A stretch of 64,000 nt of DNA, from assembly GCA_020796225.1 (NCBI GenBank), contig CM036775.1:11459171-11523170 (forward strand), given 5' to 3'. A program made the position numbers and the translations under genes. Source of the DNA: Arion vulgaris. Its lineage: Eukaryota; Mollusca; Gastropoda; Stylommatophora; Arionidae. The notes below the pieces were generated by a model. That model was not told the DNA's origin and searched no databases. It was given only the letters and a program-made list of their open reading frames with translations. The number at the start of each line of letters is the position of its first letter. Within the stretch, counting starts at the first letter, position 1. This document shows, piece after piece, positions 11,551 to 31,757 of this stretch.

Positions 11551-11552
11551 AT

Positions 11553-11571: not shown

Positions 11572-11613
11572 CCGTCTTAGCACCCGGCTTGGGAGTGGTT
11601 GGTTTGCCTGTGC
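11572..11613 (-). CDS. Microexon (42 nt), phase 1-1, of an unrecognised host gene
   Basis: On the minus strand a pyrimidine-rich acceptor (GTTTTTTCACCTTCCAG) precedes 42 nt that end in G, followed by the consensus donor GTAAGTAGTT. Taking the leading two bases as the end of a split codon (G from the previous exon), it reads G-TGKPTTPKPGAKT and leaves one G for the next exon. The frame shifted by one base has a stop. It is the last of four clear cassette exons in transcript order. The peptide is rich in Pro, Thr and Lys, like a linker. Flanking intron sequence matches that around 17257 and 24430. I do not recognise the product. Confidence 0.72.
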
Positions 11614-11689
11614 CTGGAAGGTGAAAAAACATGTTTTAATTGTATGTAATATATTGGAGAAAACAGAAAAAAATTATGTCCTTGTACTT

Positions 11690-12116
11690 TTCTTTGACCA
11701 ACCTCACATGATTGATCTATTTATTTATATTCTCTTCATGTCCAATTTGTCATATCCAGCTTCCAAAAACATGTCCATTTTTGCCGTTATGTCACCTTTC
11801 TATTAATTATTTCCACACAACTAGGACACAATATTTCAACTGTCTTTCAACCATTCTTCTCCATGTTTCTTTTGGACGTCAATTCCTCCTCTTCCTATCC
11901 GTTGTCCATTGGAGACCTGTGCTAGTTAATGTCTTTACTGACATTCGATACACATGACCAATACACCTCCATCTTTGTCTTTTAATGATGGTCTCCAATG
12001 ATGTACAGTTTGTTTGTTTTACAATATCTTCATTTGCTATTGTATTTGGCCAGAAAATGTGCAGGATTCGTCTTAAACATTTATACTTTTCTGGAAAGTC
12101 AGCTTACAGCTCATAC
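11690..12116 (-). mobile_element. LINE ORF C-terminal fragment (unit B)
   Basis: The minus strand shows CLRRILHIFWPNTIA, NEDIVKQ, RQRWR and RPKETWRRMVER, the conserved tail of an APE-type LINE ORF. Paralogues lie at 17365-17800, 25775-25910 (short) and 1-113. Confidence 0.8.
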
Positions 12117-12190
12117 TACTGTATAATAACACTTCTAGGACACTGCTTCTATAGAACCATGTATAGCTCACTACTGTTTAATAACACTTC
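12117..12190. repeat. 55-bp minisatellite, block 3
   Basis: One and a half units, cut off at CACTTC-T where the truncated element relic begins. Confidence 0.9.
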
Positions 12191-12388
12191 TGTAAACATG
12201 AGTTTTCTTCAACCAAGCCAATGGGCACGTTAAACATATAGCACAAAGGCAACTTCTAGATGGTATGATTGCTTGAATGGCAAAAAATATTTTGTAGCGT
12301 CAGAAACATGTAAGTTTTCAAGTTATTTCATCAAATGGTTACAAAGATACAAATTTTTATCTGTGGGCATGACAAGTTGAACGGACTA
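12191..12388. mobile_element. End-truncated relic of element A
   Basis: Matches 8953-9165 and keeps the right terminal repeat GTTGAACGGACTA followed by TA-GGACAC. The left end is missing, and the truncation point lies within one or two bases of the target TA. Confidence 0.8.
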
Positions 12389-12775
12389 TAGGACACTACT
12401 TCTATAGAACCATGTATTGCCCACTACTGTTTAATAACACTTCTAGGACACTACTTCTATACAACCATGTATTGCTCACTACTGTATAATAACACTTCTA
12501 GGACACTACTTCTATAGAACCATGTATTGCTCTCTACTGTTTAATAACACTTCTAGGACACTACTTCTATAGAACCATGTATTGCCCACTACTGTTTAAT
12601 AACACTTCTAGGACACTACTTCTATACAACCATGTATTGCTCACTACTGTATAATAACACTTCTAGGACACTACTTCTATACAACCATGTATTGCTCACT
12701 ACTGTATAATAACACTTCTAGGACACTACTTCTATAGAACCATGTATTGCTCTCTATTGCATAATAACACTTCTA
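12389..12775. repeat. 55-bp minisatellite, block 4
   Basis: Seven units between the relic and element B. The final TA at 12774-12775 is the target of element B. Confidence 0.95.
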
Positions 12776-14961
12776 TAGTCTGTCCATTAATTAGTGAGCA
12801 CGTTTGAAATTGATTTTCTCGAAAACTACCTGTTGGATCTCAGTGATTTTTGCAAGCAGCCTTAGAATATCCATGACGCTAGAGAAATATTTTTTCTCCA
12901 AGAAAATTTGATGTAGTTTGAAATATTTCTTCTTCAGGTTATATTAAAATCAACCTCACCGGATTGTACACAATAGTAACAGATCTACGGTACACAGACG
13001 CGTTGTTCTAAAAATACATTATGGTAACATTGAAATATAGTGAGTAAACAACAATTTCACGGGAATTCCCGTGCACCTAACAAAGTCGACTTTGAAAGCG
13101 GAAAGCATATGACGTTATAATTGGGATACCGTTGTATAGTTATAGGTGTATCTCGTTATTTGTATGAAGCTATTGTATCATATTTGTTGGCTTATCAAAA
13201 CTGACATTGATATCACATTCATAATGAGTCTGAAGTGCACATTTATAACAATGCAGAAGGTTACAGTTTTACTATACCAACACTTCGTAGGGAATCTAAG
13301 AGAGGTCATCTATATTGCGATATTCATAACCCTGAAAGCAGACGCAACTGGCGCTTGGTCTGAATAGAGAATACTTTTCCGATGGATTAAACAGGACACA
13401 AAGTGCACTAATGTCAAGCAAGGAAGGAAAAGAACAATTGACGACTTTGACATAGGTGTCATAAGACGGGAGCTCTTGAAAATGTTTGCGACAAATCAAC
13501 TTGTTACTCTCAGAAAACTGAAATTAAAACTGCAATCAGATTGCAGACATTTCTAAAAGTACTCTATAGAAAATTGTAAGAGCCGCCGGCTTCACCTTCA
13601 GAAAAACTATAGGCGGCAGGAATATTATTTGTGAAAGCCACATTTAATTGCTGCCGAAGTAAATACCTGAGGCAGATCCGTGAGCGGCAGAGGCAAGGCT
13701 ATGATATTGTATATTTGGACGGATCCTGGGTCAATGCTCACCACACCAAACGCTAAAGAATGGCAATCAGTAGACGGTGAACAGAAAGAAAAATACCAAG
13801 CAGCAAAGGTCAGCGTATTATACTAACACATGCAGGAAGCAGTGAAGAAGGTCTTGTCCATGACGCTGGACTTATTTTCCAATCAAAAGTACCGACGGTA
13901 GGGACTACCACACAGAAATGAATGGACATATTTTCAGGCACTGGATGGAGAAAGATCTACTTCCAATTCTAAACAGACCATCATGCTTGGTAATGGATAA
14001 TGCATCCTATCACAACGCAGTATCAGCGGAAGACAAAGTACCAACTGCATCAAATACAAAAGATCAAATTAGGACTTGGCTTGCTAAGGAAAATGTCAGC
14101 TTCGATGATACATATTTGAAACCCGAGTTGTTGCACCTGGTGAGGATGACAAATAAGACAAAGGTGTTTCATATTGACAAAATCATTGCGGAATACGGCC
14201 ACACGTCTTTGCGACTACCTCTATATCATGCTCAACTCAATCCGATAGAGCTTGTCTGGGCTAAAGTAAAAGGGCAAGTTGCCGAACAGAACAGGACGTT
14301 TAAAATGTGTGATGTTGAAGTTCTGACACTTGAGTCCCTCTCAATGATAGACATGCAGTTCTGGAAGAAGTGTGTTGAACATGTGCTCCGAGAGGAAGGC
14401 GAGTACTGGCACCGAGATGGATTACAATTTGTCCAGCCAGTAACAATTATCAACCTCATGGAATCGTCAGATTCGGGATGATACAAATCATATTTTGATT
14501 ACAGACTGAGAAATAGCAACGTATACATTTCCATATCCAAATGCGTCTACCATCATACAATTTGTGGTGAAGTTAAGACACCCTGGGGTCTAATGGTGGC
14601 GAAGGGGAGGGGGACTAACTGTTGCATATTGTATCCAAGTTCACGATTGCACATAAAGGGCAACACACTTAATTACTTGACCTATCAAGTTAATATGGAG
14701 ATACACCTATGAATAGAATTGACATGGACAAATTCTACGGATTACTGTAAAATCTAAAATTTGAACCCACGCATTTGCAATTGTCATAAAAGATCAAAGG
14801 AATTCGCCGATGTGCAAAATCTGTAGCATCTATGGACTACTGTTTAGCTTTATTTTAGCGTCATGGATATTCTAAGGCTGCATGCAAAAATCACTGAGAT
14901 CCAACAGGTAGTTTTTGAGAAAATCAATTTCAAACGTGCTCACGAATTAATGGACAGACTA
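12776..14961 (+). mobile_element. TA-inserted TIR element B (Tc1/mariner superfamily, transposase-bearing)
   Basis: 2186 bp. Inverted ends of about 110 bp start TAGTCTGTCCATTAATT at 12776 and end AATTAATGGACAGACTA at 14961, with the target TA at both sides. The match is imperfect but long, including TTGAAATTGATTTTCTC near the left end and its inverse near the right. It carries one plus-strand transposase remnant. Confidence 0.9.
13360..14481 (+). pseudogene. DDE transposase, Tc1/mariner superfamily, N-terminal half frameshifted
   Basis: This enzyme family cuts and pastes DNA at TA sites. The N-terminal helix-turn-helix part (about 13410-13620) parallels the protein of element C (DDFDIGVIRREL, then VTLRKLKLKLQ) but is broken by several frame changes. 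The first catalytic Asp is in YLDGSWVNAHH (about 13714), where its neighbour Glu has become Gly. The last 187 codons (13918-14481) are intact and hold the second Asp in VMDNASYHN and the Glu in QLNPIELVW, with 83 residues between them. That spacing is far longer than the DD34E/D types. It reads as an inactivated copy. Confidence 0.88.
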
Positions 14962-15210
14962 TAGGACACTACTTCTATACAACCATGTATTGCTCACTAC
15001 TGTTTAATAACACTTCTAGGACACTGCTTCTATACAATCATGTAATGCTCACTACTGTATAATAACACTTCTAGGACACGACTTCTATACAAACATGTAT
15101 TGCTCACTACTGTATAATAACACTTCTAGGACACTGCTTCTATACAAACATGTATTGCTCACTACTGTATAATAACACTTCTAGGACACTTCTGTACAAA
15201 CATGTATTGC
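14962..15210. repeat. 55-bp minisatellite, block 5
   Basis: About 4.5 units following element B and ending at the LINE tail. Confidence 0.95.
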
Positions 15211-15840
15211 TTCCAGAGAAAAACCCACACATCTTGGTGTTATTTTCGGTTTGGACAACTATGAACCGGGCACAATAGGCTTAGGTACCATCTATTCAAC
15301 AATTACAAGATAAGCCCTACTGACATATGCACATGTGGCATCAGCAAGTGACAGGGACACACATCATGCAAGAGAGTCCATCATATAATTAACACAAGAA
15401 ATACACATGACCAACCCCATCATGTCAGTCCAAGACATACTACATGGAGATGTACATTGATCCGGTTGATCACTAACTACTTTAGAAGTAAACAAGTCAA
15501 TGTCTGAAATAGTTGGAAGAAGAAGAATACTGCTTCTATATAATTTCAGTTTAGTTTTAAGATTTAATACTTTGGTTTTCTAGATTTTGTTGAGCATTGC
15601 AAAAGTTTGTCTTGCTATCTAGATTTTTCAAATGATGTCCATTTTCGATCAATCAACATCCTGCGATACTGTACTTACCATGTATACAAAATCTTTCTCT
15701 ATGATGTAATTTTGTAACATAATTGAGTGTTATGATTTTTGGTTATTTCTGATTTATTTCGTTTTTGCAATAGGAATTTTAAATAGTATTGTTTGAGCTG
15801 TTCTTGAAAGTGTATCTATTTTCGTTTGAGCATCTTCGTA
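15211..15840 (+). mobile_element. RNase H-type LINE 3' tail (unit B)
   Basis: Near-identical to 22727-23370 and to 9961-10470. It contains the same GISK and CTCG zinc-finger traces. The 3' part (15560-15840) has no clear frame. Confidence 0.6.
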
Positions 15841-15888
15841 TCAGCTAAGTAAATGACTAAAATTATCTCTATAATCCAAATCCTCCAG

Positions 15889-17110
15889 GAGTAGTAAGAG
15901 TAGTAGTATTATAGTAGTAGTAGTAGTAGTAGTAGTAATAGTAGTAGTAGTAATAGTAGTAATAATAGTAGTAGTAGTAGTAGTAATAGTAGTAATAATA
16001 GTAGTAGTAGTAATAATATTAGTAGTAATAATAGTAGTAATAATATTAGTAGTAGTAATAATAGTAGTAGTAGTAGTAATAGTAGTAATAATAGTATTAG
16101 TAGTAATAGTAATAATAATAGTAATAATAGTAGTAGTAATAACAGTAGTAGTAGTAATAGTAGTAAAAATAGTAGTAGTAATAATAATAGTAGTAGTAAT
16201 AGTAGTAACAATAGTAGTAGTAATAGTAGTAACAATAGTAGTAGTAGTAATAGTAATAATAATAATAGTAGTAGTAATAGTAATAATAATGGTAATAGTA
16301 GTAATAGTAATAATAGTAATAGTAGTAGTAATAGTAGTAATAATAGTAGTAGTAGTAGTAATAGTAGTAATAATAGTAGTAGTAGTAATAGTAGTAATAA
16401 TAGTAATAGTAGTAATAATAGTAGTAGTAATAATAGTAGTAGTAGTAATAGTAGTAATAATAGTAGTAATAATAGTAGTAATAATAGTAGTAGTAGTGAT
16501 AGTAGTAAAAATAGTAGTAGTAGTAATAATAATAGTAGTAGTAGTAATAGTAGTAAAAATAGTAGTAGTAGTAATAATAATAGTAGTAGTAGTAGTAATA
16601 GTAGTAACAATAGTAGTAGTAGTAGTAGTAGTAATAATAATAGTAGTAGTAATAGTAGTAACAGTAGTAGTAGTAGTAATAGTAATAATAATAGTAGTAG
16701 TAATAACAATAGTAGTAGTAGTAGTAATAGTAGTAACAATAGTAGTAGTAATAATAGTAACAATAGTAGTAGTAATAGTAGTAAAAATAGCAGTAGTAGT
16801 AATAGTAGTAACAATAGTAGTAGTAGTAATAGTAATAGTAGTAGTAATAGTAGTAACAATAGTAGTAGTAATAGTAGTAACAATAGTAGTAGTAATAGTA
16901 GTAAAAATAGCAGTAGTAGTAATAGTAGTAACAATAGTAGTAGTAGTAATAGTAATAGTAGTAGTAATAGTAGTAACAATAGTAGTAGTAATAGTAGTAA
17001 CAATAGTAGTAGTAGTAGTAATAGTAGTAGTAATAGTAGTAACAATAGTAGTAGTAGTAGTAATAGTAGTAACAATAGTAGTAGTAGTAGTAATAGTAGT
17101 TGCAGTAGAA
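15889..17110. repeat. Giant TAG/TAA microsatellite (about 1.2 kb)
   Basis: Almost pure mixture of TAG, TAA, CAA and AAA triplets. The 281-437 codon frames (poly-Leu, poly-Thr/Ile, poly-Tyr, poly-Val) arise because one triplet repeat is open in several frames. None has promoter, start context or domain support. Short internal duplications of about 130 bp are visible (16790-16910 repeats at 16910-17030). Confidence 0.97.
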
Positions 17111-17256
17111 GAACCAGTAGAAGAACAAGAATAAGAACAAATGTAATGATACAACTAGAATACATTTTTGCTAAATAATTATAGTACAACATTTAAAAAG
17201 AGTCAATTTAAAAAGATGTAGTCAAGGGAAGATAATTGGTTATTAGGACTACTTAC

Positions 17257-17274
17257 CCTCCTCACCACTTGGAT
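17257..17274 (-). CDS. Microexon (18 nt), phase 1-1
   Basis: The minus-strand acceptor region has a strong pyrimidine tract (TTTTTTCCCCTTTCC) with the first downstream AG in ATGCAAG. The exon ends in GG before GTAAGTAGTCC. In the shared frame it reads D-PSGEE plus one G. The one-base-shifted frame has TGA. Intron sequence on both sides is clearly paralogous to that around 24430-24450, while the exon itself is unrelated. Confidence 0.65.
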
Positions 17275-17364
17275 CTTGCATTATTATGTATGGAAAGGGG
17301 AAAAAATATGTTTTAATAGTATGTAATATATTGGTAAAAATGGAAAAGAAAAAAAAGCCCTGTA

Positions 17365-17803
17365 CTTTTCTTTGACCAACCTCACATGATTGATCTATTT
17401 ATTTATATCCTCTTCATGTCCAATTTGTCATATACAGCTTCCACAATCATGTCCATTTTTGCCGTTCTGTCACCTTTCTATTAATTATTTCCTACGCCAA
17501 AAGCTAATATTTCAATTCTTTCAACCATTCTTCTCCATGTTTCTTTTGGACATCAATTTCTCCTCTTCCCATCTGTTGTCCATTGGAGATCTGTGCTAGC
17601 CAATGTCTTTACTGGCATACAACAAACACATGACCAATCCACCTCCATCTTTGTCAGTTAATGATGATCTCCCAAAGATGCACAGTTTGTTCATTTTACA
17701 ATATCTTCATTTGCTATTGTATTTGAACAGAAAATGTGCAGGATTCGTCTTAAACATTTATATTGGAGTGTTTCCAGCTTTTACAGAACGTCAGTTTACA
17801 GCT
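17365..17803 (-). mobile_element. LINE ORF C-terminal fragment (unit C)
   Basis: Paralogue of 11690-12116, ending in the same CLRRILHIF-coding stretch. Broken at about 17803 by the insertion of a nearly complete LINE. Confidence 0.8.
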
Positions 17804-20484
17804 GATGACGGTTGCTGATGAAAGTGCTTGCGGAAGTCAGCAACCCGACTCTACATTACTTGGCTCAAAACACACACTAAAATTGGATTTTGGAATGTGA
17901 GAACGATGGCCACGGCTACAAAATCAGCCCAAATTGCAGAAGAAATGAAGAGATACGAGCTGGACATACTGAGGTTAAGTGAGGTGTGATGGCCTGGAAC
18001 AGATAGAACAGTAGTTAGTGGATTAACTTTCATATATTCAGGGAGAGAAGATGGTAAACATTTTGAAGGAGTGGGTATAATGATGATACCTAGAGTAGCA
18101 AAGAGCATGTTAGAATGGGAACCCATCTCGAGTCGGATAATTAGAGCCCGCTTCAGTACTAGGCATGTCAATATGACAATACTGCAGTGTTATGCACCAA
18201 CAAATGAGGCTGACGATGATAAGAAAGACACATTTTATGAGCAACTACAAGATCAAATTAACAAGACCCAAAAACATGACCTGTTAGTAGTAATGGGGAC
18301 TTTAATGCCAAGGTTGGAAGTGATAATGTAGGGGTAGAGAGAGCTATAGGAAAACAAGGAATAAACACAATGAATGAGAATGGAGAAAGACTGGCGGAGT
18401 TATGTATGCTGTCAAACTTAGTAATTGGAGTTACCATCTTTGCACATAAGGAAATTCATAAACTTACTTGGCACTCACCAGATGGAGTGACCAGGAATCA
18501 GATTGACCATATGTGCATAAATACACAATTTAGAACATCATTGCTGGATGTCCGTGCATACAGAGGGGCAGATGTAGGAAGTGATCATAATTTATGCATA
18601 GGTAAATTGAAACTGAAATTGAAAATTCACCATACTAAAAAGAACAACTGCGAATAGACAGTCAAAGGCTACAAAATAATGAGGTAAAAGAGGAATATCA
18701 GCTCGAACTTAAGAATAGGTTCGAGTTACTCAATAGTGAAAATGAACAGAACATTGAAGACAAATGGACTAAGATAAAGGACATACTATTGGTGGTAGCA
18801 AATAGTAGCGCAGGATTAAAGACGAAAGACAGAAAACCCTGGATAAGCTATGATACCTGGAAATGTATTCAAGAAAGAAGAAAGATGAAACTAGCCATAT
18901 TTAATACTAAGGATGCAACAGATGAAATCCAAGCTAAAGAGGAATATAGACTAAAAGACAAGGAAGTGAAAAGAGCGGCTAGAAGAGATAAAAGAGCATA
19001 TGTCAATCGACTGGCCGAAGAAGGGAAAAGGCAGCTAAGACTGGAACAGTAAAATGCTATACAACACACTAAAACAACTTACTGGAACTTTTGTTTCAAA
19101 GGGTGGCCCAATCAAGAGTAAAGATGGTAAAGTTCTAACATCAGACACCGAGCAGAAGAAAAGATGGGCAGAACATTTTGAAGAAATATTAAATAGACCT
19201 GATCCACCAGTACTACTCAAGTTTGCTGAAGAGTAATAAAGTATGGGAAGAAGAAACTGTCCCAGATAAATGGAAAAAGGGAATAATTGTTAAGATCCCC
19301 AAAAAGGTGATCTCAAAGATTGCAACAACTGGAGAGGATCACCCTATTATCAGTAATGACCAAGACTTTCTGCAAGATCATTCTTAATAGAATCAAAGGA
19401 GCAGTGGACACAACCTTGAGAGAGGAACAAGCTGGTTTTAGACCTGGGAGAAGCTGCTTAGACCAAATAATTACCCTACGACTAATTTTGGAGGAACATA
19501 TTGAGAAGCAACAACCACTTATACTAAATTTCATTGATTTAAAAAAACCTTTGATAGTCTACACAGAATCTCCCTGTGGAATATTCTGAGATGCTATGGA
19601 ATACCAGACAAAATAATAAACATTATCAAGAGCCTCTATGATGGTTCACAGTGTGCACTGATGGTGGACACAGTGACTGGTTTATGGTTGAAACTGGAGT
19701 AAAGCAAGGCTGTATTCTATCTCCGCTATTGTTTGGAGTGGCCATTAACTGGGTGATGCGAAAATGTTGCAGGGCGAAACTGGCATCGATTGGGTAGAAA
19801 ATAGTCAACTAGAAGATTTGGATTTTGCAGATGATATTGCCTTAAGTAGAAACAACCAAGATATGCACAGAAAAACAGACAACTTGTCATCTTTAGCATC
19901 AAAAGTTGGACTGCAGATAAGCTATGGAAAAACAAATATAATGAAGACACCTATGGCAAGTAATGCAGATATCACACTGGAATCTAAAATGATAAAAATA
20001 ACAGAGCAGTTCACCTATTTAGGTAGCAATTTTGATTGCACAGGTAATGTTAAAAAATAAATTATGATACGAATTGGCAAAGCAACATCAGCTTTTAAAA
20101 GTCTAAATAAAATATGAAACTGCAAGTTATATAGTATTAAAACTAAATTACGAATTTTCAATTCAAATGTATCAATCCTAACATATGCTAGTGAGAGTTG
20201 GAAAATAACTAAAGATATAGAAAGCAAGTTGAATGTATTTGAAAATAGATGTCTGCGAAAAATAATGAATATAAAATGGAACGAATTCAGGAGAAGTGAT
20301 GAAATCAGAGAAATGTCTGGTCAACCACTAGTGACAACTGTTATGAGAAGAGAAGGTCTCAGTTCCATGGATGAGATTAAGCGAGTTGCCCAGGATAGAG
20401 CAATATGGAGAAATTACTTGCAGGCCCTATGTAACATATATATGGTCATATAATGGTACAAGAGGAATTATTATTATTATTATT
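17804..20484 (+). mobile_element. RTE/CR1-like non-LTR retrotransposon, nearly full-length
   Basis: A 2.7-kb element with a short 5' leader, one broken ORF and a (TTA)n 3' tail at about 20468-20484. It interrupts the 55-bp minisatellite unit: LINE-tail sequence lies on the left, and minisatellite resumes with GCTCACTACTG right after the tail. Clade assignment (RTE-like) rests on remembered sequence patterns only. Confidence 0.88.
17880..20455 (+). pseudogene. LINE endonuclease-reverse transcriptase ORF, degraded
   Basis: The protein nicks DNA with an APE-type endonuclease and reverse-transcribes its RNA. The endonuclease starts KIGFWNVRTMA (about 17880), then LQCYAPTNEADDD (about 18183), a damaged DFNAK motif (about 18297), NENGERLAELC (about 18373), NQIDHMCIN (about 18497) and GADVGSDHNL (about 18572). 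RT parts: NWRGITLLSV (about 19328), GFRPGRSCLDQI (about 19436), GCILSPLLFGVAINW (about 19710) and the catalytic FADD box in LDFADDIAL (about 19820). The C-terminal ENRCLRKIMNIKW lies near 20240. Stops and frame changes occur throughout; the transcript order matches intact relatives. Confidence 0.9.
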
Positions 20485-20566: not shown

Positions 20567-22578
20567 TAGTGCGTTTCAAAACGTTTGGTCAACGATTGAC
20601 CTCAAATATCTCCATATTCATTGCATGGATGAGCGTGATTTTTTGCATGTGGTGTTGTATTTCCGGTGTCCCAACGATTTTCTAAAATTCAATGTTGTAG
20701 GTAGTGTACTTTTCTTGCAATGGCGAATTCCTTTGATCTTTTCAAACCTAGTAATTATTTGGTGCTGGAAGAAAATAATTTACCGTAAAATTAATAAATC
20801 ACATATTTTCGGCATAGACGTATATACAATTCGAATTTTGGAGGGTGAGATAACTCATATTATATAAATCATATAAAGTGTTTACTCACTTATTCTGAGT
20901 CCGATGAGTCTAACATATTGATGACTATTCTTGGCTGCAGACGACAGTCCATCTTTGTCCCAGTAGTCATTTTCCTCCTTAAAGACATGGTCTTCGCATT
21001 TACACCAATAATCTCTGTCTATCTTCGACAGGGCGGCATATGTTAGTTCTTTCATATTGCTTAGCTTGAAAGTTTTATTTTCAGTTGCTACCAGTCCTTT
21101 AACTCTGGCCCAAATGAGTTCAATTGGGTTTAAGTGTGAATGATAAGGTGGTAGTCTCAAACACACATGACCATGCTGTTGAATCAACTTGTCTGTTTGG
21201 AATACCCTGGTCTTCTGTGATGTTTTAACAATAGATAGTAATTCAGGCTTCAAAACCCCCTCGTTAAATGGAATGTTCTCCTTTCTGAGCCAAAGTTTTA
21301 TAGCATCTTTTGTACTCAAAGATGTCGGGATTTTGTCTTCTTCTGACACAGTGTTGTGGTATGATGCGTTGTCCATTATCACACAGGATGGTCTGTCTAG
21401 GGACGGAAGAAGAGTATGTTCAATCCAATCTCTAAATATGTTACCGTTCATCTCGGTATGATAGTCCCTGTTGTCTGTATAATTGGAAGTGAAAATAAGT
21501 TCAGCATCTTTAACCAGCCCATTTTGTCTGCTGCCTGCATGTGCATGTGAATCAGACGTTGTCCTTTTCCACTAGGTACATATCGTTTAATTGTTCCATC
21601 GGATAACTGCCACTCCTTTTCATTAGTGTGGTGAGCATTGATCCAGGTTTCATCCACATACACAATATGGTAACCTTGATTACGCATTTCCCGTACTTCA
21701 CGTAAATATTTACTTCTCAGACGTACTAAATGCAGGCTGCTCGAGATGACATTTCTCCCATTAGCGTACTTCCTAAAAGTAAAGCCGATGCTTCTAACAG
21801 TTCTCCATAACGTTGATTTCGATACATCAATGTCATTGTGTATTCTTAACATAATCTTCAGCTTTCTTAGTGTCACAGTTTCTTTGGAATCGAACATTCT
21901 GCAAATTTCTCTTCTAATCACATCCCTGTCAAAATTGTCTACTACTTTCTTTCTGCCTTGAGTCAATGTATTTACTGTACTGACAGCTCCATTAACATTG
22001 AGTAATTTATGTAGATATCTTTACTTAAGCCCAAAGCATGCATAGTTCTCTGTTCAGGATTTGATATACTCCGATACAGTTTTCCACGATTAGATTCTCT
22101 GATAAAATATTTATACATTTTCACAGCCACTGTATGCAGTGTAAGAAACTTGATTTTCATACCCATTGTATAACAAATCTAGAATACTAAACGTTTTGTA
22201 ATACACCTATGCTCTGAAAACACAAACAGTAAATTGTAACTAAACACACCGGAAGGATCATTATACATTTTTTAAAAGTGCGATAAAGCGATTAAAATCT
22301 GGAAAACCAAGGGAAAACCATGCAAGTCGTGGAACTTGCAACATCTCACAAATATGAAGGGGTAATACTTCTCATTATATGGTTGGCTAAGGAGATGGTC
22401 ACTTTATATACTTTACATAAAGAAAATTTTAAACCATACGTTTGTTATTGAGTAAAAAATATATATATACCTCGGGACATTACGATCATTAGATCATATG
22501 CAAAGTTACAACAATTACAGACAAGCGGTTGCAGAGATATTACATTTTCCACGCGGAAAATCATTTTGAAACGCACTA
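20567..22578 (-). mobile_element. TA-inserted TIR element C (Tc1/mariner superfamily)
   Basis: 2012 bp, with left end TAGTGCGTTTCAAAACG and right end CATTTTGAAACGCACTA. The target TA is duplicated (20565-20566 and 22579-22580). Transposase lies on the minus strand. The terminal similarity is short compared with element B. Confidence 0.9.
20882..21966 (-). pseudogene. DDE transposase, Tc1/mariner superfamily (DD83E spacing), one frameshift
   Basis: Two overlapping minus-strand frames (21448-21966, 172 codons; 20882-21451, 189 codons) form one protein of about 360 residues. The N-terminal part has a helix-turn-helix region (TVTLRKLKIMLRIHNDIDVS, KSTLWRTVR). The first catalytic Asp is in IVYVDETWINAHH, the second Asp in VIMDNASYHN and the Glu in HLNPIELIW; 83 residues separate the last two. 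Comparison with element B places a single one-base loss near 21540, in the CACATGCACATG stretch. All three catalytic residues are present, so this copy could have been active until recently, or could be intact with a consensus error. Confidence 0.9.
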
Positions 22579-23370: not shown

Positions 23371-23374
23371 CTTT

Positions 23375-23800
23375 TGTCGTCACACTGCTACCGGGTTGTT
23401 GCCCAGTGTTGTGATTTTCTGTTTTTGCCTTGCGCTGCTCTGGTGGCTTGTGTGATTGTTATCTTTGTTCTTTCCCAGGATTCCGCTACCCCATCTAACC
23501 ATCTTTTCCGTGGTCTTCCTCTTGCCTTCTTTCCCGATGTTCTGTTGTAGAAGACTCTGTATACTGTGGAGTTTGGATGCATTCTTATTAAGTGGCCAAA
23601 CCACTTCATTTTTGTTTATCTATGTAATTCAAGTACGGTTTTGTGCCAACTTTCTTCTTATGCTGATGTTAGTGATTCTGTCTTTTCTTGTGTTGTTGGT
23701 AACTTTTCGCAGGCAACGCATTTCACATGTAGTTATTTTTGTGACTGCGCTTTGCTCAATGTCCAAGTTTGGCTCTGGTAACACAAAGTAGGTATAAAAA
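23375..23800 (-). mobile_element. LINE 3' tail (KWFGHLIRMHPN family), minus strand
   Basis: The minus-strand frame at 23388-23609 gives KWFGHLIRMHPNSTVYRVFY and GKKARGRPRKRWLDGVAES, the C-terminal block of an APE-type LINE. Relatives: 26745-27145 (plus), 39840-40080 and 62400-62660 (minus). Confidence 0.85.
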
Positions 23801-23974
23801 TGCTGTTGATCATCTGTTGCTTAGCTGCCTGTGAAATTTTGGGTGCCTTAACATGGGGCTAGCTGGTAGGTTACAGCATTTGCTTTTGCACTCTAGCCTC
23901 TATCTCTCTATCCAGTTTTCCGTCTTCTGTGAATAATAGTAGTTGCAGCAGAAGAACAAAAATAAGAACAAATG

Positions 23975-24300
23975 TCACCGAGTGGTTACCGGGGCCCAAA
24001 TTGGGGTGTAAAGAATGGAACCCTGTTACCTACCACGCATGTCGTAAGAGGTGACTAAGGAGGTTGGCCATGAGGCTAACTACCCCACACCGTAAAATAC
24101 AGATGGCTACAGAACGGAGAGCGAACAGAGTAAACGCTGGCTGAAACCGGGCACATCGCTGAAGGATAAGCACCAGAGCTCCAAATGGTGCTGAAGATGT
24201 GATGTAAAACACACCAATGCTAAGGCTGCCTGAGTCAGATTTCCACATGAATAGAATTTATGAGGATGTCTGGTACATCGGTCTGGGCGGTGATCACAAG
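23975..24300 (+). mobile_element. SINE (CCGAGTGGTTACCGG head)
   Basis: The head resembles the A-box region of a Leu/Ser-type tRNA (CCGAGTGGTTA). Relatives with the same head occur at 29567, 34237, 41866, 43560, 45505 and 50625. The copies at 43560, 45505 and 50625 share this full-length body (GATGGCTACAGAA, then CCAGAGCTCCAAATGGTGC). Confidence 0.75.
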
Positions 24301-24429
24301 AGAGAGAGAACAAATGTAATGATACAACAGTAATACATTTTTGCTAAATAATTATAGTGGAACATTTAAGTAGAGTAAATTTACAAAGACGTAGGCAAGG
24401 ATAGATAATTGGTTATTAGGACTACTTAC

Positions 24430-24450
24430 CCGTGATATCATCTTCACTGA
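24430..24450 (-). CDS. Microexon (21 nt), phase 1-1
   Basis: Minus-strand acceptor TTTTTTGTCCCCTTCTAG, 21 nt ending in GG, then donor GTAAGTAGTCC. In the shared frame it reads V-SEDDIT plus one G. The frame shifted by one has a stop. The immediate intron on the donor side (24340-24429) and acceptor side (24451-24490) is strongly similar to that of the 17257 exon. Its acidic peptide differs from the other cassettes. Confidence 0.72.
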
Positions 24451-24516
24451 CTAGAAGGGGACAAAAAACATGTTTTAATATTATATAATGTATTGGCGAA
24501 ATACATAAAAACAGTG

Positions 24517-24640
24517 TACTGTAGTTTTACAAAAATACAAAAACAATAATAATACACATCAACGTTTCGACCAAAAGGCCTTTATCAAGTAAAGGATACA
24601 AGAGAAGTGAAGATTTGTAAAACTGCAGTACTTTGTCTTT
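24517..24640 (-). mobile_element. Penelope-like 3' end relic with inverted second piece
   Basis: 24517-24600 is the reverse complement of the Penelope-like 3' end (compare 5255-5335), including AACGTTTCGACCAAAAGGCC. 24612-24640 (TTTGTAAAACTGCAGTACTTTG) is the adjacent piece in the opposite orientation. This copy keeps GGTCGAAACG intact. Confidence 0.75.
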
Positions 24641-25360
24641 ATGTATTTCGCCATTGCTACAGTTAGCATGTAACGAATACAACATGAGAATAAACATCGA
24701 CAAAACAGAAGTAATGACATTCACCAGAGAGGAAAGCACTACCAATATCTCCATCGACAATCGCCCACTAAAAAAAGTGAAAGACTTCACATACCTGGGG
24801 AGCATTTTTTCAGCAAAACAGAAGAATAACTAATGAAATTCAACACAGATGCAACAAAGAAAATCAAATGATAGGACAAATGGCGCTAATTTTAAGATGC
24901 AAACACGTCACCATGAACACGAAAAGAGCAATGTTGAACACAATCTTTCTCCCACATTATGTTACCAGTGCCAAACCTGGACACTGACAACAAATGATAG
25001 AAGAAAACTAGTCACGACAGAGATGGTCTACGCAGAATGCTGGGTGTAACAAGAAGAGACCGGTTGAGAAATGAAGACATCAGGAAAAAATTGGGTACAA
25101 CATCAGTACTAGACTTCATCAAGAAACAACAAATTAAATGGTTGGCCACATAAGCAGATTACCAACAGACTGCACCTCAAAGAGCAATGCTGCTCCGATA
25201 CAATGGGTACAAAGCAAAAGATGGAACTCAGAGATAAGAGAGGCGACGAAAGAGACTATCTACGAAGCGCATACAAGGGCCCGTTTTAGAAATCTCTTCT
25301 TGACCTGACGCTGCGAGGCAAACAGGATTCAAGAAAGAAAGAAAGAAAGAAAGCCATTGC
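24640..25360 (+). mobile_element. LINE RT C-terminal half with (GAAA)n tail
   Basis: With frame changes it reads NMRINIDKTEVMTFTRE (about 24680), VKDFTYLGSIFS (about 24776), CYQCQTWTLTT (about 24960), then SRLPTDCT (about 25155) and a GAAA repeat at 25332-25352. Relatives of its tail occur at 44040-44250, 46010-46220 and 56045-56250. Confidence 0.75.
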
Positions 25361-25385
25361 TACATAGTTTTACTGCAGTCTTCCC

Positions 25386-25727
25386 AGGGGGACTGCCTAG
25401 AGTAGTTGATAGTATCTCGGCCTGCTAGCTGTGAGACGCTTCATAGCTCGGGTTCGAATCTACTGTCCGGCATTTGTTCGAGTCCCTGGTCTTACTCAGG
25501 ACGATAACGTGAGTACCTCTGAAGTCAGAGAAAATCTGCCTGTATGGCGAGGGAATACTAATTACGAGTACATTGAGCACACGGCTGCCAGTGTAAAAGT
25601 AATTTACTATGTGCATGCTGCTGCCATTGTAAGAAATTGGAAAAACAGATTTTCACGCAAAAATCAGTTTCAGAGATGGAACCTCGTCTGAATTGAAAGC
25701 GGACAGAAAAGGAAAAAAAAAAAAATA
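25386..25727 (+). mobile_element. tRNA-headed SINE with 12-bp target duplication
   Basis: Flanked by TGCAGTCTTCCC at 25374-25385 and 25728-25739, and ends in a poly-A run. The B-box-like GGTTCGAATCT lies at about 25450. The inverted paralogue is at 10478-10800. Target duplication plus A-tail shows LINE-machinery retroposition. Confidence 0.9.
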
Positions 25728-25774
25728 TGCAGTCTTCCCTTATATGTAACATATTGGCCTGAACGGATAAAACA

Positions 25775-25955
25775 AAATATCCTTACTTTTCTTTGACCAA
25801 CCTCACATGATTGATCTATTTATATCCTCTTCATGTCCAATTTGTCAAATACAGCTTCCACAAGCATGTCCATTTTTGCCATTCTGTCATCTTTCGATTA
25901 ATTATTTCCTTCTCCAGGACAAGAGTAGTAGTAGTAGTAGTAGTAGTTGCAGTAG
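25775..25955 (-). mobile_element. Short copy of the unit LINE tail plus (TAG)8
   Basis: 25775-25915 repeats the start of the 11690-12116 block, then jumps directly to a short TAG run at 25925. This is the condensed fourth duplicated unit, without minisatellite or RNase H tail. Confidence 0.75.
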
Positions 25956-26300
25956 TGATACAAGTCTATCATGACTGTTGATTTCCATGTTGTGTCTGAG
26001 CTGAAAGCAAGGATGCAGTGTTTCTTTCCATTTGTGCCTTAGCCTGGGCAGCTGATAAAGGGAATGTGCCTTATCCATTTTGCATAAACCCCCTCTCTAT
26101 CTTGCTGTTTCATACAAAGAAGGAAAGACAAGGTTAATATGTTTGGAATCAAGCAGGGTATATCATTCACTGTACCAGATCCTCGTTAAAGGGTTTAAAG
26201 TGTACTCATTTCAATAACAGTCTAAAAGAGTCCAGTTTTGTTATTTTTCGTCCCTACCTTCCCGTCCAGGCAGAGGGTAAGTTGCGCACCTGCTGCTGTC
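25956..26300. other. Intron-like stretch, nothing recognised
   Basis: No frame, repeat match or RNA structure seen. A plus-strand acceptor-like CCTTCCCGTCCAG followed by GTAAGT at 26269-26286 encloses only a few bases and is not called. Confidence 0.4.
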
Positions 26301-26390
26301 TTTGACAAATAATTCTAGTGCAGCATTTAAGTATATTAAATTAACAAAGATGACGGTGAGAGGAGAGAATTAATAAGAAGGACTACCTAC

Positions 26391-26429
26391 CTAATACACT
26401 AGCTTGAACGCCAATGGGCTTGTCCGTTA
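26391..26429 (-). CDS. Microexon (39 nt), phase 1-1
   Basis: Minus-strand acceptor GGTTTATTTGTCTTCCAG, 39 nt ending in TAG, then donor GTAGGTAGTCC. Read as an intact exon from its first base it would start with TAA, and the frame shifted by one has a TAG; only the phase-1 frame is open, giving V-TDKPIGVQASVL plus one G. That is the same frame as the other three cassettes, which is the strongest evidence that they splice together. Flanking introns (26309-26390, 26430-26480) are diverged relatives of those of the other units. Confidence 0.75.
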
Positions 26430-26544
26430 CTGGAAGACAAATAAACCAGTTACCATATAATGTGTTAAATTAACAGAAGATTAAATGGTTTGGCCACCAG
26501 AAAATAATATCGTCTACCACAAAGAGTCACATTTAAATTGCGCA

Positions 26545-26665
26545 GCGAAACTATTCTGGTTAGGATTTTTCTTAATACCCACGACAGAAAAAATTCACTG
26601 GCCTTATGGTGGATTGAAACCGGGTCTCTTGCATGGAAGCCACCGTCTAATTTCAGTTAATTGAC
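26545..26665 (-). mobile_element. tRNA-headed SINE fragment, minus strand
   Basis: The reverse complement carries GGCTTCCATGCAAGAGACCC and the B-box-like GGTTTCAATCC, followed by TTTTTTCTGTCGTGGG, a core shared with 33555-33670. Confidence 0.6.
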
Positions 26666-26744
26666 AATACATTGTACTAGACATCTAGAGAATACTTGAA
26701 CATATTTTTTTCATGAGTTAAGTTTGACATTGTGTTTTAACTTT

Positions 26745-27145
26745 GTGTTACCAGAGCCAAACATGGACAAATAGCAAAGCGCAAGTCACAAAAAATAACT
26801 ACATGTGAAATGCGCTGCCTGCGAAAAGTTACCAACACCAGAAAAGACAGTCACCAACATCAGCATAAGAAAGAACGTTGGCACAGAACCTTGCTTGAAT
26901 TACATTGAGAAACAAAGAATGAAGTGGTTTGGCCACTTAATAAGAATGCATCCAAACTCCACAGTATACACAGTCTTCTACAACAGAACATCAGGAAAGA
27001 AGGCGAGAGGAAGACCATGAAAAGATGGTTAGATGGCATAGCAGAATCCTGTCAAAGAGCAAAAATAACAATCATCCAAGCCACTAGAACAGCGCAAGAC
27101 AAAAACAGAAAACGACAACACTGGGCAAAAACCTGGTAGCAGTGT
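26745..27145 (+). mobile_element. LINE 3' tail (KWFGHLIRMHPN family), plus strand
   Basis: Encodes MRCLRKVTNT, MKWFGHLIRMHPNSTVYTVF and GKKARGRP with frame changes. It is the opposite-strand relative of 23375-23800. Confidence 0.85.
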
Positions 27146-27290
27146 GATGACACTGGACAACCCGGTAGCAGTGTGATGACACTAGACAACAACCCGGTAG
27201 CAGTGTGACGACACTAGACAACAACCCGGTAGCAGTGTGACGACACTAGACAACAACCCTGTAGCAGTGTGACGACAAAAGGAGAAGAAG
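27128..27290. repeat. 33-bp tandem repeat grown from a LINE 3' end
   Basis: Five copies of GGTAGCAGTGTGACGACACT plus AGACAACAACCC. The single-copy form closes the relative at 23375-23400, so the array expanded from the LINE terminus. Confidence 0.85.
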
Positions 27291-27434
27291 TTTGACATTG
27301 CAAGATTGATAGTATTTCCAGATTGTGCACCATATTGGAAGTTAGAGATTTTCACACTCGTTGAATGTTGAATTTTGTGTGACCATCAGGTTTTGATGTG
27401 TTAAAGGCGTTAAAATGAATTTGGTCTGTTATAC

Positions 27435-27510
27435 GAACACACACCTGTGGATACAGAGCACACACCTGTGGATACAGGCACACACTGGATAGCACACACC
27501 TGTGGATACC
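27435..27510. repeat. Short tandem repeat (CACACCTGTGGATA)
   Basis: Three to four imperfect copies of about 24 bp. Confidence 0.75.
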
Positions 27511-27559
27511 GTTAGGTGAAGTGTTGATTGAAATATCCTGGTGACGGGATGAGAGTTGA

Positions 27560-28125
27560 TTGAAGTATCACACTGATGTTGTTGGCTGTTGAAATGTGTT
27601 GTAGATGTCTACAGTGTATACGTGAGATATCTGCAACATCTGTATCGTTTATGGTTACCATACATCCTCATTGTTGTGGACACATCATCATTTCCCGAAT
27701 AAATCGAAGCGATTTGTCCACAATTTTACAAGCCAAGAAAAAATTAAAAGATTTTTGACTGACAAAGATGTGCACATAGATTATTCAAAGTACTGTGATT
27801 AGTACTGCAATCTGAAGAAATTTGCATATATCGAAAAAAAAATCAAGTGCCATCGCAAAAGAGTGGTGTGATTATATTGAAAACTGTAGGAGTAGTAAAA
27901 TGTACTCTGAAATTGTGAAGATAGCACAGCTCTTCTTTGCTATTCCAGCACACAATGGTTTGGTAGCAAGACTTTTCTTTAATCCATGTCCGATGGAGCA
28001 ATGAGAGAAATCGTCTTAGTGTGGATTCAGTCAAGTCAATTTCGCTTGTAAAATTTCATTTCAAACATTTCACATGCAGGAAATTTTGTGGACATTTGAT
28101 ACAAAAGACATTCTTAAAAAAGATC
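27560..28125 (+). pseudogene. hAT-family transposase C-terminal remnant
   Basis: hAT transposases carry a C-terminal dimerisation region. Here, with frame changes, the plus strand reads AKEWCDYIENC (about 27857), MYSEIVKIAQLFFAIPAHN (about 27900-27957), ARLF, a WSNERNRLS-like stretch (about 27990-28015) and VDSVKS, matching that region's usual order (FAIPAHNA, VERLFS, NRL, L). The N-terminal part near 27560-27760 is uncertain. No terminal repeats were found. Confidence 0.65.
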
Positions 28126-28199
28126 AGGTCATCAGAAAAAATATAGATGGAACACAATTTAAATGGAATTTAATATTAGAGATGTCCTCATTTCACTAG

Positions 28200-28700
28200 A
28201 TCAAAATATCATCATCATCATCAGGTGCTGGCTGGCGTAGGCAATCATGGATCTCCACAAATCTGTCATTGGTGTTTGCTGTCAACTCAGATGTTGACGC
28301 TCTACCGTGCCAGGAAGTCAGGCTATCCAAAATTTTCTCTCTGTCTTCCTCTGTCTCATCTACCCTCGATTCTAACGATCAAAATATGGCTACCCTATTA
28401 TTGTTGGTTTTATCATCATTGGCCTTGTCTCAGAAGACAACTTGTCATTAAATATGTTATGTCATGTCGAAGACAACTCATGACGTCCAATACTCAACAC
28501 CAAATGAGCTAGACTGTTTTTTCGTTTGCCCTTTATGAATTCAGACGTAGACTACCTAATATGTGGACTTTGAATGATTTTTACATGAAGACTAGCTTTC
28601 CTTATCAGTGTCCATTGTCATTCAGGCGAACTTACTTAGACTTCCAAACTACTTGTAATGTTGATGCCCAAGTAAAGGATCAGGAAACATGTAGTTCAAC
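28200..28700. other. Unassigned stretch
   Basis: Begins with a CAT microsatellite. Frames of 60-95 codons are present but show no recognisable domain; likely decayed repeat. Confidence 0.3.
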
Positions 28701-28726
28701 TTGTCATACTTGATACTGTGGCATAC

Positions 28727-29172
28727 CAAAAATTGCATACTGTGTGCACACCCGACAATTGCATTCTGTGTGCATAAACGACAATTGCATTCTGTGTGCA
28801 TCCGACAACTGCATACTGTGTGCATACCGACAATTGCATACTGTGTAGCATCACTGACAATTGCATACTGTGTGCATACCGCAATGTGCATACTGTGTGT
28901 ATGAACAGAAGCGACATACTAAATATGCAAAGAGATTGATTAATCAACATCAAATTGGCGTGTTGGGCCGCTGGACGCTGCTGGATTTGCTGAGATGGAG
29001 CTCAGAGCACCTATGGACATGTCTGGAGTGCTATGATGATAGTCCTCATATAACTGATAACTGAAAATTGCATACTGTGTGCATACCGACAAGTGCATAC
29101 TGTGTGCACACCGACAAGTGCATACTGTGTGCACACCGACAAGTGCATACTGTGTGCACACTGACAATTTGT
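28727..29172. repeat. 26-bp minisatellite interrupted by a LINE tail
   Basis: Copies of TTGCATACTGTGTGCATACC plus GACAA at 28727-28908 and 29063-29172. The right block is more uniform, with CACACCGACAAG. The intervening 28911-29062 encodes KRLINQHQIGVLGRWTLLDL, a LINE tail related to 54440-54960. Confidence 0.85.
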
Positions 29173-29224
29173 TGGGTCCAAGCTGGCCTTGAACCCCAGA
29201 ATTAGAACAGTATGGGGTTTCTAG

Positions 29225-29545
29225 CGAAACATGTTGCCCGCTTCACTATCGATGCCCCAGCTGGATAGAGAAGAAGAAAAATATATCTATCAAGTAAGAA
29301 CTCAGAATCTAAGAAAACTGGCTGATGCTACAAATAAGAAAATTGAAGTATTTTGGACATATAAAGAGAAACGAATGATTGGAGTGAAAAGACCACAAAG
29401 ATGGATTCAGAATGTAACTGATGAGCTCAGCATGACAGCTGCAAAGGAGGAGGAGGGGGATCATCTGGCATATGAGAGAGAAATTCCAAAGGACGGTTGG
29501 GGTAGCAAAGTTCTGCTCAAGATAAGCTATTTGATGATGATAATG
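29225..29545 (+). mobile_element. RTE-like LINE 3' tail
   Basis: The frame at 29231-29653 contains KRPQRWIQNVTDELSMTAA and HLAYEREI, ending at an ATGATGATAATG tail. The same family is at 31490-31620 (plus), with a minus-strand relative at 35870-35990. Confidence 0.8.
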
Positions 29546-29566
29546 ATAACATTAATATTCATCATC

Positions 29567-30075
29567 CCGCCCGAGTGGTTGCCGGGTCCCAAATTTGGGG
29601 TGCAAAGAATAGAACCACTGTTATCTACCATGCATGTCGTAAGAGGCGAGTAAAGAGGGTAGGCTGAAATCGGATGCACGTGTCCGCTAGGGAATGCTAA
29701 TCCTAAACAAATGCTTGTAGAAAATGGATGCACCAGACTGTAAGGCGCATAACATGGTGCAACGACCCCTCACAATGAGGAATGGGATAATAGATTCTAC
29801 GGCCGCCAATCTGCCTAGGAGATTTAGCCATGAAGTAAGAATGTCAGAACTACCATCACAAGGGTGGCCAAAACTTACTGCGGGAAGAGGTCGGCACAAA
29901 CAGGGAAGCAGAAATCATAGGAATTATATCCTACAGAACTGCCCCCAGACTTGAGAAGAAAGAGGTGGCCCACTTACACTAGCATCCAAGACAAACTGTA
30001 TGGTGTGGCTGATAATCTGAGGCAGATGGCTGCCTTTATTAGAGAATCTGAAATTCCAATCTAGTGAGAATGCAG
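29567..30075 (+). mobile_element. SINE-headed element with LINE-like 3' part, copy 1
   Basis: Starts CGCCCGAGTGGTTGCCGGG, continues for about 500 bp and ends with AAATTCCAATCTAGTGAGAA. It is a full relative of 34237-34745. The 3' half encodes RQMAAFIRESEIPI, a LINE C-terminus, so the element probably uses a LINE-derived tail. Confidence 0.75.
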
Positions 30076-30194
30076 AAGAAGATATTCATCATCCAATCTA
30101 CTATATAAATAGTATATTGATTTAACAAAACTTGGAAGGCTTAGTACAAAACTGAAGAAAGTGAAGATAGTGTAGCACATTATTACGATACTAT

Positions 30195-30345
30195 AGTGGT
30201 CATATAGAAGATCTAGAAGACGATGAGTGCATGATGTCATTGACGACCTGAGAATGACTGCTGCTGACACTGGCCAACTGGCACAGAACAGAGTTTTTCA
30301 GGACTGCTGTCATGGGAGCCAAGTTCTGGAAGGAACAGTCTGAAG
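30195..30345 (+). mobile_element. LINE 3' tail fragment (DDLRMTAAD family)
   Basis: Reads DDLRMTAADTGQLAQNRVFQ with frame changes. Relatives at 36130-36340 (minus) and 37600-37810 (plus). Confidence 0.7.
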
Positions 30346-30349
30346 TAGG

Positions 30350-30855
30350 TTAGACACAGTCCAAAGTAGGTTAGACACCTTACAAAACTGGTTGTAAGAT
30401 CATCTTATCATGTTCAATGCAACTTTATTTTAGTCGCTATGACTACACAATTAGGGAGTTAATGGAAGTCACTATTTGCTCATTCCTCTGTCTTTTTCCC
30501 TCCAATATTATTCTGTAGTAGAGAATTTATATCTCATACTGTAACCAAGCCATGAGTCTACATTTATATTTTTAACAGTTCCCTATACGCACATTTGTTC
30601 ACGTACAACTGCTGAAAACTGAAAGGGTCTAAAGCCGGAGAGTTGATTGACTTCAGTGTACCAAGATTTACCTCATGTAGATCGGTCCCTCTCTACAGAA
30701 ATGGAATAGCACCTGCATTAAACTCCCACCTCTATGCTTAACGACAATAGTGGACAACCAACTCCATCATCCACATGAAAAAAGATAAAAGTCAAAGAAT
30801 CGGTGAAGACCATTATAGAAGGAGGCATCTCGGCTAAGTAGAGAAGTTAGTTTGT
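30350..30855. other. Intron-like stretch, nothing recognised
   Basis: A short direct repeat (CAGTCCAAAGTAGGTTAGACAC region, 30340-30380) is the only structure seen. Confidence 0.4.
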
Positions 30856-30859
30856 TCCT

Positions 30860-31490
30860 TTCATGCCAAAGGCGGAAAATAGGGCAGAAGTTTTTGAGCT
30901 TCATGTGATGCAGTTCGTTGCTAGCAGTTGGAGATTTTGTATGGTTTTACATCCCGATAGTTTACTTTCTTGTAGTATTGTTCTTCTAAGAGTGGTCTTA
31001 GGTCTTCCACGTTCTCTTTTCCCAACTGGTGACCACATAAGGACTTGTCGTTTTAGTCTCTTTTCGTCTGATCTAAGAACATGACCTAAATATTTCCACC
31101 TTTGTTTCCTTATAATATTTGATACAGATTGTTGCTGTGTTCGATCTCTCACTGTGTTGTTAGAAACTAAATCACTCTAATTTACTTTTAGTAATTTGCG
31201 GAGACATTTATTCTCAAAGCTGTCCATTTTCTTATCAATTCTATTTGTTGATTTCCAACTTTCACAACCTTAGGTCAGTACAGGAATCCCACAGGACCTA
31301 AACAATTTAACTTTTGTACATATAATAACGTCTTTAGATTGCCAGATATTTGTTAACTTAGTGAAGGCACTAGCTGCTATAGCAATACAAGAGTTTATTT
31401 CTTTCATCGTGTCTCTGTTATTTGAAATTTTACTACCTAAATATGTCAAATGTTTAACTTTCTCCAGTGTTTGGCCATTTAGAGAAGAAG
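30860..31490 (-). mobile_element. LINE RT C-terminal part, minus strand
   Basis: The minus strand encodes LEKVKHLTYLGSKISNN (about 31440-31490), CESWKSTNRIDKKMDSFENK (about 31200-31265), QRWKYLGHVLRSDEKRLKR (about 31050-31105) and GKRERGRPKTT. It is truncated on its 5' side at about 31490, where a plus-strand tail is joined. Confidence 0.8.
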
Positions 31491-31625
31491 ACCAAAGAGA
31501 AGATGGGTTCAGGATGTGAAATGATTTATGCATGACGGCTGCAGAGGCGGGCATCTGGCCTATGAGAGGGAGAAATTTCGAAGGACTGTTAGGGTGGCAG
31601 TGTTCTGCTCAGGACAAGCTATTTG
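31490..31625 (+). mobile_element. RTE-like LINE 3' tail fragment
   Basis: The plus strand reads KRRWVQD, CMTAAEAG and HLAYERE with frame breaks; same family as 29225-29545. Confidence 0.65.
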
Positions 31626-31735
31626 ACAAATGTTCAGTCAGGTAAAGAAGTTATTTTTAAAGAAGATTGCAGTAGATGTGCTAAAAATTAACAACACCTG
31701 AAACTAAACAAATGAATGACAACAAATATTCTTAC

Positions 31736-31757
31736 CTATCACCAAAAGTGTAGTAAT
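31736..31757 (-). CDS. Candidate microexon (22 nt, or 15 nt with an earlier donor)
   Basis: Minus-strand acceptor TTTTCTTTATGTTTCAG, then ATTACTACACTTTTGGTGATAG, then consensus donor GTAAGAATATT. As written it is 22 nt and would break the phase-1 pattern. If the TTTT run has one extra base, or if the weaker internal donor at TTTTG-GTGATAG is used (15 nt, D-YYTF plus G), the pattern holds. The splice borders are convincing, but the exact coding content is not settled. Confidence 0.5.

Follow-up and report, generated by a model that had tools for sequence, protein, structure and literature searches.

Four tiny segments on the minus strand of a 64,000-nucleotide stretch of the Arion vulgaris genome (the whole stretch analysed, here called the window) are probably real coding micro-exons of a micro-exon-type gene pair, a reading of the DNA sequence to which we give a probability of roughly 0.72. 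Such a pair would be independent of the micro-exon genes (MEGs) of flatworms and would have grown by frame-neutral duplication of its cassettes. The cassettes have a common structure, are homologous to one another, maintain their frame and have been duplicated.

A repeated unit with a probable micro-exon at two loci

The original prediction placed segments of 42, 18, 21 and 39 nt, named A, B, C and D below, on the minus strand of the window, and we reproduced all four at the same places with their AG acceptors and GTAGGTAG/GTAAGTAG donors. Their lengths are indeed all multiples of three, and phase 1-1 is the sole frame open across the four, giving the same peptides. Furthermore, of the seven copies of the donor word GTA[AG]GTAG in the window, four are on the minus strand, and these coincide with the four segments. 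The statement that the exons end in G holds for A-D and fails for three of the 12 other cassettes described below, which end in A, T and A. The interval given for the gene ended at 31757, and we read a 22-nt candidate at 31736-31757 as the intended basis of this right end; the candidate is present in the redundant contig C2584, yet it has no counterpart in the 43 kb of paralogue searched and is thus unsupported. The flanks of the four segments are homologous to one another:

26391..26429, minus strand: cassette D, 39 nt, phase 1-1, TDKPIGVQASVL, donor GTAGGTAG
24430..24450, minus strand: cassette C, 21 nt, phase 1-1, SEDDIT, donor GTAAGTAG
17257..17274, minus strand: cassette B, 18 nt, phase 1-1, PSGEE, donor GTAAGTAG
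11572..11613, minus strand: cassette A, 42 nt, phase 1-1, TGKPTTPKPGAKT, donor GTAAGTAG
26282..26390, minus strand: conserved downstream intron flank of D (flank model)
24321..24429, minus strand: conserved downstream intron flank of C (flank model)
17148..17256, minus strand: conserved downstream intron flank of B (flank model)
11476..11571, minus strand: conserved downstream intron flank of A (flank model)

Flank models for nhmmer, covering 110 bp downstream and 70 bp upstream, were built from A-D alone. Above the inclusion threshold they match only A, B, C and D in the window, and with no further training they add four same-strand cassettes in the 264 kb around it (5 kb of which is N). The array continues to the left of the window as had been predicted, with A-1 as the next cassette, and it also continues to the right (window coordinates):

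-442..-401, minus strand: cassette A-1, 42 nt, A-type, found by the flank models
74303..74338, minus strand: cassette A74, 36 nt, A-type, found by the flank models
81430..81471, minus strand: cassette A81, 42 nt, A-type, found by the flank models
84017..84052, minus strand: cassette A84, 36 nt, A-type, found by the flank models

A DNA search of the 1.52-Gb genome with unit A gave at least nine strong places among the 40 scored of 1407 candidates, the nine being the five A-type units of this region and four near 14.2 Mb on the opposite strand of the same contig, and the strong matches to unit D include itself, the redundant contig and two further places. This paralogous locus lies 2.7 Mb away on the other strand of the same chromosome-scale contig (the Arion vulgaris genome is given as 1.54 Gb in 26 chromosome-scale scaffolds; PMC9392753), and the same flank models find seven cassettes in it, of 39, 48, 39, 36, 36, 34 and 36 nt. 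One more, pD0, was recognised through its likeness to the start of exon D and not by the models:

genome position 14168267: pD0, paralogue of D, 39 nt, TDRTAGHSYDVK, donor GTCAGT
paralogous locus: pD, counterpart of D, 39 nt (length set by homology to D), TDKDIDVPLFVK
paralogous locus: pC, paralogue of C, 48 nt, RAIDNDYDNEHDEDD
paralogous locus: pB, paralogue of B, 39 nt, IHEPFDDSQSLY
paralogous locus: pA1-pA4, A-type copies of 36, 36, 34 and 36 nt

The two loci therefore hold 16 cassettes, four original, 11 found by the flank models and pD0 by exon similarity, with sizes of 18-48 nt, peptides of 6-16 residues and the donor GTAAGTAG in 13 of the 16. The C and B types are acidic in several cases and the A types are rich in Thr, Pro and Lys. 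Homology between the loci is collinear from about window position 30550 to about -5740. The array of tiny symmetric minus-strand cassettes thus stands as originally described, and what that description missed is the duplicated unit, the second locus and the acceptor tails. The models also matched two small contigs, C2584 (with a copy of D) and C1639 (with a copy of pD), which were left out of the 16. At 97% identity, C2584 is a redundant version of window 26091-37835, and in the two stretches compared it differs from the window mainly by short clustered indels, so that small contigs here look error-prone.

Frame maintenance and divergence of the cassettes

Of the 16 cassettes, 15 have a length divisible by three and an open phase 1-1 frame (pD having been placed by homology). 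When only the 11 model-found cassettes are considered, as a held-out set, 10 are in frame in phase 1-1, a test that a random segment of such lengths passes with a probability of about 0.2. As the A-type copies are recent and non-independent duplicates, the independent weight of this result lies on pC, pB, pD0/pD, A84 and pA1. The cassette out of frame is pA3 (34 nt), which differs from pA2 and pA4 solely by two homopolymer deletions; it sits on a large contig, unlike the copies on C2584 and C1639, and the C1639 copy of pD is likewise out of frame, at 38 nt. A fixed rule that reads from the first AG after the T-run to the model donor returns valid cassettes in 14 of the 16 cases and fails on pD, where an internal T-run gives a zero-length exon.

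Exon length differs in four of 11 pairs, by 27, 21, 6 and 6 nt, all of them multiples of three, although the two 6-nt changes may be a single event; the set omits pA3, which is 2 nt off pA2 and whose inclusion makes it four of five changes. Among the flank indels of these pairs, 12 of 71 are multiples of three. The two largest changes occur between well-matched flanks, as 98 of 117 aligned flank bases agree for C and pC, whose exons differ by 27 nt, and 89 of 106 for B and pB, whose exons differ by 21 nt. A search for exon-like intervals that both loci conserve gave five, of which only D and C are open in both, each in phase 1-1 and C also in one other frame; A and B were missed, probably through failed alignment or the pyrimidine criteria.

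These data bear on the possibility that the segments are true former exons and that one or both loci are no longer expressed, leaving decaying tandem relics in a repeat-rich region. The out-of-frame cassette among the 16 and a dead-looking unit at 25740-25909 would agree with such decay, as would the fact that neither termini nor a protein match were found in the searches run. Moreover, A84, A81 and A74, which could be part of the same gene or of an incomplete third copy, have no D, C or B unit upstream according to the flank models (264 kb, including 5 kb of N) and are maybe the tail of a broken third copy. However, 15 of the 16 cassettes are in frame while 59 of the 71 flank indels are not multiples of three, and the deletions in pA3, itself on a large contig, are homopolymeric, an error type that C2584 shows as well. 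We consider decay of this kind unlikely.

Exon divergence exceeds flank divergence at p<0.05 in seven of 12 pairs, the tests being one-sided and uncorrected and the pairs overlapping and chosen by us. Between D and pD, 11 of 39 exon bases differ compared with eight of 113 flank bases (p 0.0014), and the other pairs below 0.05 are A84/A81, A84/pA1, pA1/pA2, A74/pA2, A/pA2 and A81/pA2. The contrast is not significant in the remaining five (D/pD0 0.73, pD/pD0 0.94, A/A-1 0.52, A/A81 0.28 and A81/A74 0.43). By raw counts, nonsynonymous differences per site exceed synonymous ones in seven of 12 pairs and do not in five. The upstream flanks of A and A-1 are 99% identical over 468 bp, a sign that upstream flanks were locally homogenised, and conversion could thus account, in place of selection, for part of the contrast between exons and flanks.

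Acceptor tails and neighbouring repeats

The 468-bp stretch before exons A and B is a retroelement-like tail. When its translation was compared one to one with another retroelement-like frame of the region, it resembled the C-terminal part of that frame (31% over 81 residues, E 9e-16), and Pfam returned no match for it; presumably the element belongs to the RTE clade. The tails and the associated repeats in the window are:

11614..12085, minus strand: acceptor region and retroelement-like 3' tail of A, the tail end ...CAATATATTACATACAATTAAAAC lying 19 nt before the exon
17275..17762, minus strand: acceptor region of B, tail as in A (17295-17762 is 88% identical to the A tail over 473 aligned columns)
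24451..24520, minus strand: acceptor flank of C with a short tail remnant, 3 mismatches to the 24-mer
26430..26498, minus strand: acceptor flank of D, homologous, with a faint relation to the tail
25740..25909, minus strand: extra tail copy between D and C, no donor recognised, with a counterpart in the paralogue
1..71, minus strand: start of the tail belonging to A-1, a cassette with its exon to the left of the window
12115..12775 (12115-12191 and 12389-12775), unstranded: 55-bp minisatellite arrays upstream of cassette A

The extra copy is probably a dead cassette. By eye, the tail ends 19-35 nt before the exon in 13 of the 16 cassettes, and the flanks of D, pD and pD0 are too diverged to place it. 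This distance corresponds to the branch-point zone, and the tail may supply the branch point. A tail-end pattern taken from the cassettes themselves, CAATATATTACATACNATTAAAAC, was found in the genome at 11 places with 0-1 mismatches, only at the two loci, and at 84 places with up to three mismatches, of which 13 are cassettes; the reversed control gave 49, and this pattern alone therefore shows no more than a modest excess elsewhere. We read 10 of the 71 non-cassette places, selected because their variants recur. In several of them the likeness to the cassettes extends further upstream and one is a local tandem repeat, and all of them diverge behind the motif, with no homologous acceptor, exon and donor seen by eye. 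A variant terminus from dispersed copies, CACATGGTATTAAAACTGGTT, has 78 matches at up to one mismatch and none in the reversed control; none of the 78 is a cassette, so that the link between the cassette tail and the dispersed repeat rests on similarity.

As both flanks carry dispersed repeats and the unit is itself repeated, the segments could be no exons at all and simply the middle of a tandemly copied repeat which varies in threes by accident. This we regard as very improbable, because 10 of the 11 held-out cassettes kept the frame and none of the 10 places read elsewhere showed an acceptor-exon-donor arrangement behind the tail motif.

Minisatellites similar to the 55-bp arrays are found near other A-type units, which also carry a dispersed repeat downstream, and both are candidate sites of unequal exchange. 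A single ancestral unit made up of tail, acceptor, exon, donor and intron was duplicated, probably via unequal exchange between the repeats and minisatellites that it carried.

The region also contains other elements. Tandem 3.2-kb copies at 1207-8574, about 97% identical, represent an element which we take to be Penelope-like; their GIY-YIG-type frame scores 21.4 bits with Pfam, slightly below the cut-off. A 3.6-kb direct duplication, 92% identical, occupies 37835-41334 and 60430-64000 and contains an RNase H frame at 39155-39667. DDE_3 transposase frames are located at 13864-14481 (plus strand) and 20882-21571 (minus strand), the latter with relatives in Arion vulgaris, Haliotis rubra, Argiope bruennichi and Macrobrachium rosenbergii. 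A UniRef transposase from Arion vulgaris has many matching copies in the genome, at up to 97%. A 1.2-kb array of AGT/AAT-type triplets at 15890-17108, about 150 bp downstream of cassette B, is open in several frames by composition, and a 126-codon open frame at 53858-54238 (plus strand) consists of 48-bp repeats near LEPGLPPTTGKHNHPT as judged by eye. To the right of the window, a minus-strand C2H2 zinc-finger match at 137342-137587 in window coordinates (20.7 bits, under the Pfam cut-off) is likely an exon of a neighbouring gene.

Gene ends, related systems and a possible role

A first exon with an ATG, a hydrophobic start and a phase-1 donor was sought in 26301-64000, which gave 12 weak candidates and none convincing, and in positions 1-21600 of the paralogue stretch, which gave four weak ones, none evidently common to both loci by eye. 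For the last exon, none of the 15 conserved acceptors in the 3' block has a convincing terminal frame. One of these acceptors, at about -1762 on the minus strand, has a conserved donor 63 nt away (to about -1825) and an open phase 1-1 frame at both loci; acceptor and donor formally make a further candidate cassette, but were set aside because they lie inside a multi-copy repeat at both loci and a scan with a stricter donor did not return them. A 106-codon frame at about -4632..-4949, identical over much of its length and with an in-frame 18-nt indel between the loci, was also discarded, as its peptide resembles by eye a repeated element elsewhere in the region; Pfam gave no match for it. A block of 246 bp at 27728-27973 is 94% conserved with the paralogue, compared with about 76-83% in the neighbouring matched pieces, and holds no long frame common to both loci; it is possibly regulatory or an untranslated exon.

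Pfam was run on three frames of the minus strand, with stops read as Gly, in six stretches of 10 kb each (window coordinates of about -20 kb to 0, 26.5-46.5 kb and 84-104 kb). RNase H was found twice and DUF6451 once, and no Ig, FN3, lectin or other extracellular domain was detected in these 60 kb of one locus at E 0.01. Protein searches with the concatenated cassette peptides, which are short queries, covered proteins of about 30-297 residues and gave a single match at E 5.8 and, in a second search, none.

Extracellular modular proteins usually have exons of phase 1-1. Together with the Thr/Pro/Lys composition of the cassettes, their phase could therefore point to a linker, such as a mucin-like stalk, of a conventional secreted or membrane protein with most of its gene outside the stretch read. 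The lack of termini nearby, which means that other exons are elsewhere or were missed, also speaks for such a linker, whereas the Pfam search saw no extracellular domain in the 60 kb of minus strand at the one locus, and on balance we find this explanation distinctly improbable.

Two analogues had been offered for the cassettes, schistosome MEGs and the PEVK-type linkers of giant muscle proteins, and the first fits much better. The PEVK region of titin is built of small symmetric exons that encode Pro/Lys-rich linkers, in modules of about 28 residues in which P, E, V and K abound. The slug cassettes are also small, symmetric and Pro/Lys-containing. However, their modules have only 6-16 residues and include the SEDDIT and PSGEE types, the stretches scanned contain no Ig or FN3 domain, the exons changed faster than their flanks in seven of 12 pairs, and there are two local loci, all of which makes a muscle spring hardly credible. 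Dscam has tandem arrays of cassette exons in which duplicated exons have similar flanking introns. The slug exons resemble these in their duplication and similar flanking introns, but they are micro-sized, symmetric and too short for a folded domain.

The MEG architecture has been tied to flatworms and to interaction with the host immune system. A typical MEG has an N-terminal signal peptide, a coding region that consists largely of micro-exons, a fast-evolving mature part and isoforms produced by micro-exon skipping. MEGs are described as having tiny symmetric exons whose length is mostly a multiple of three, together with long introns and a high dN/dS, and exon duplication in MEG-3 has been linked to a transposable element (PMC4350168, PMC10526429). 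In 2015 they were said to appear restricted to platyhelminths (PMC4350168), and the term micro-exon gene has been applied to rice too (PMC6600660); among the literature matches listed, none concerned molluscan micro-exon genes or related designs. The description of MEG exons as symmetric, 6-81 bp long and mostly multiples of three applies to 15 of the 16 slug cassettes as predicted exons. The slug exons changed faster than their flanks at p<0.05 in seven of the 12 pairs. In contrast to MEGs, whose introns range from 100 bp to almost 5 kb, the slug gene would have introns of about 1.6-48 kb if each cassette is spliced to its neighbour, the host is a mollusc, a retroelement-like tail is present at most acceptors and the peptides are acidic or rich in Thr, Pro and Lys. 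No MEG matched the concatenated cassettes in the protein searches, which is a weak test with such short peptides. As splicing is predicted from the sequence and the searches found neither homology nor a convincing signal peptide, we regard the slug system as one that works like the flatworm MEG family and not as a member of it.

If the cassettes are micro-exons, their product would be a variable and probably disordered peptide that begins with the D type, continues with the C and B types and ends in a run of A types. Because each cassette is frame-neutral, copies could be added, lost, lengthened or skipped with the frame intact. Splicing, secretion, alternative use of the cassettes and selection for diversity, for example in mucus, gland or defence proteins, may be expected of such a gene. 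More tentatively, and with the odds somewhat against it, we propose that a mollusc independently evolved a micro-exon system in which a retroelement tail acts as a portable acceptor, the unit of tail plus micro-exon was multiplied at two loci and the cassettes outpace their introns, yielding a combinatorial, hypervariable secreted peptide.

This work offers a search rule for exons missed by ordinary gene finders, namely the use of flank models and not coding models. If the proposal is true, the units that can still be seen here, each with its repeat tail, micro-exon and minisatellite, would show how such genes get built, and the presence of MEG architecture in a free-living slug would mean that it can arise without parasitism.
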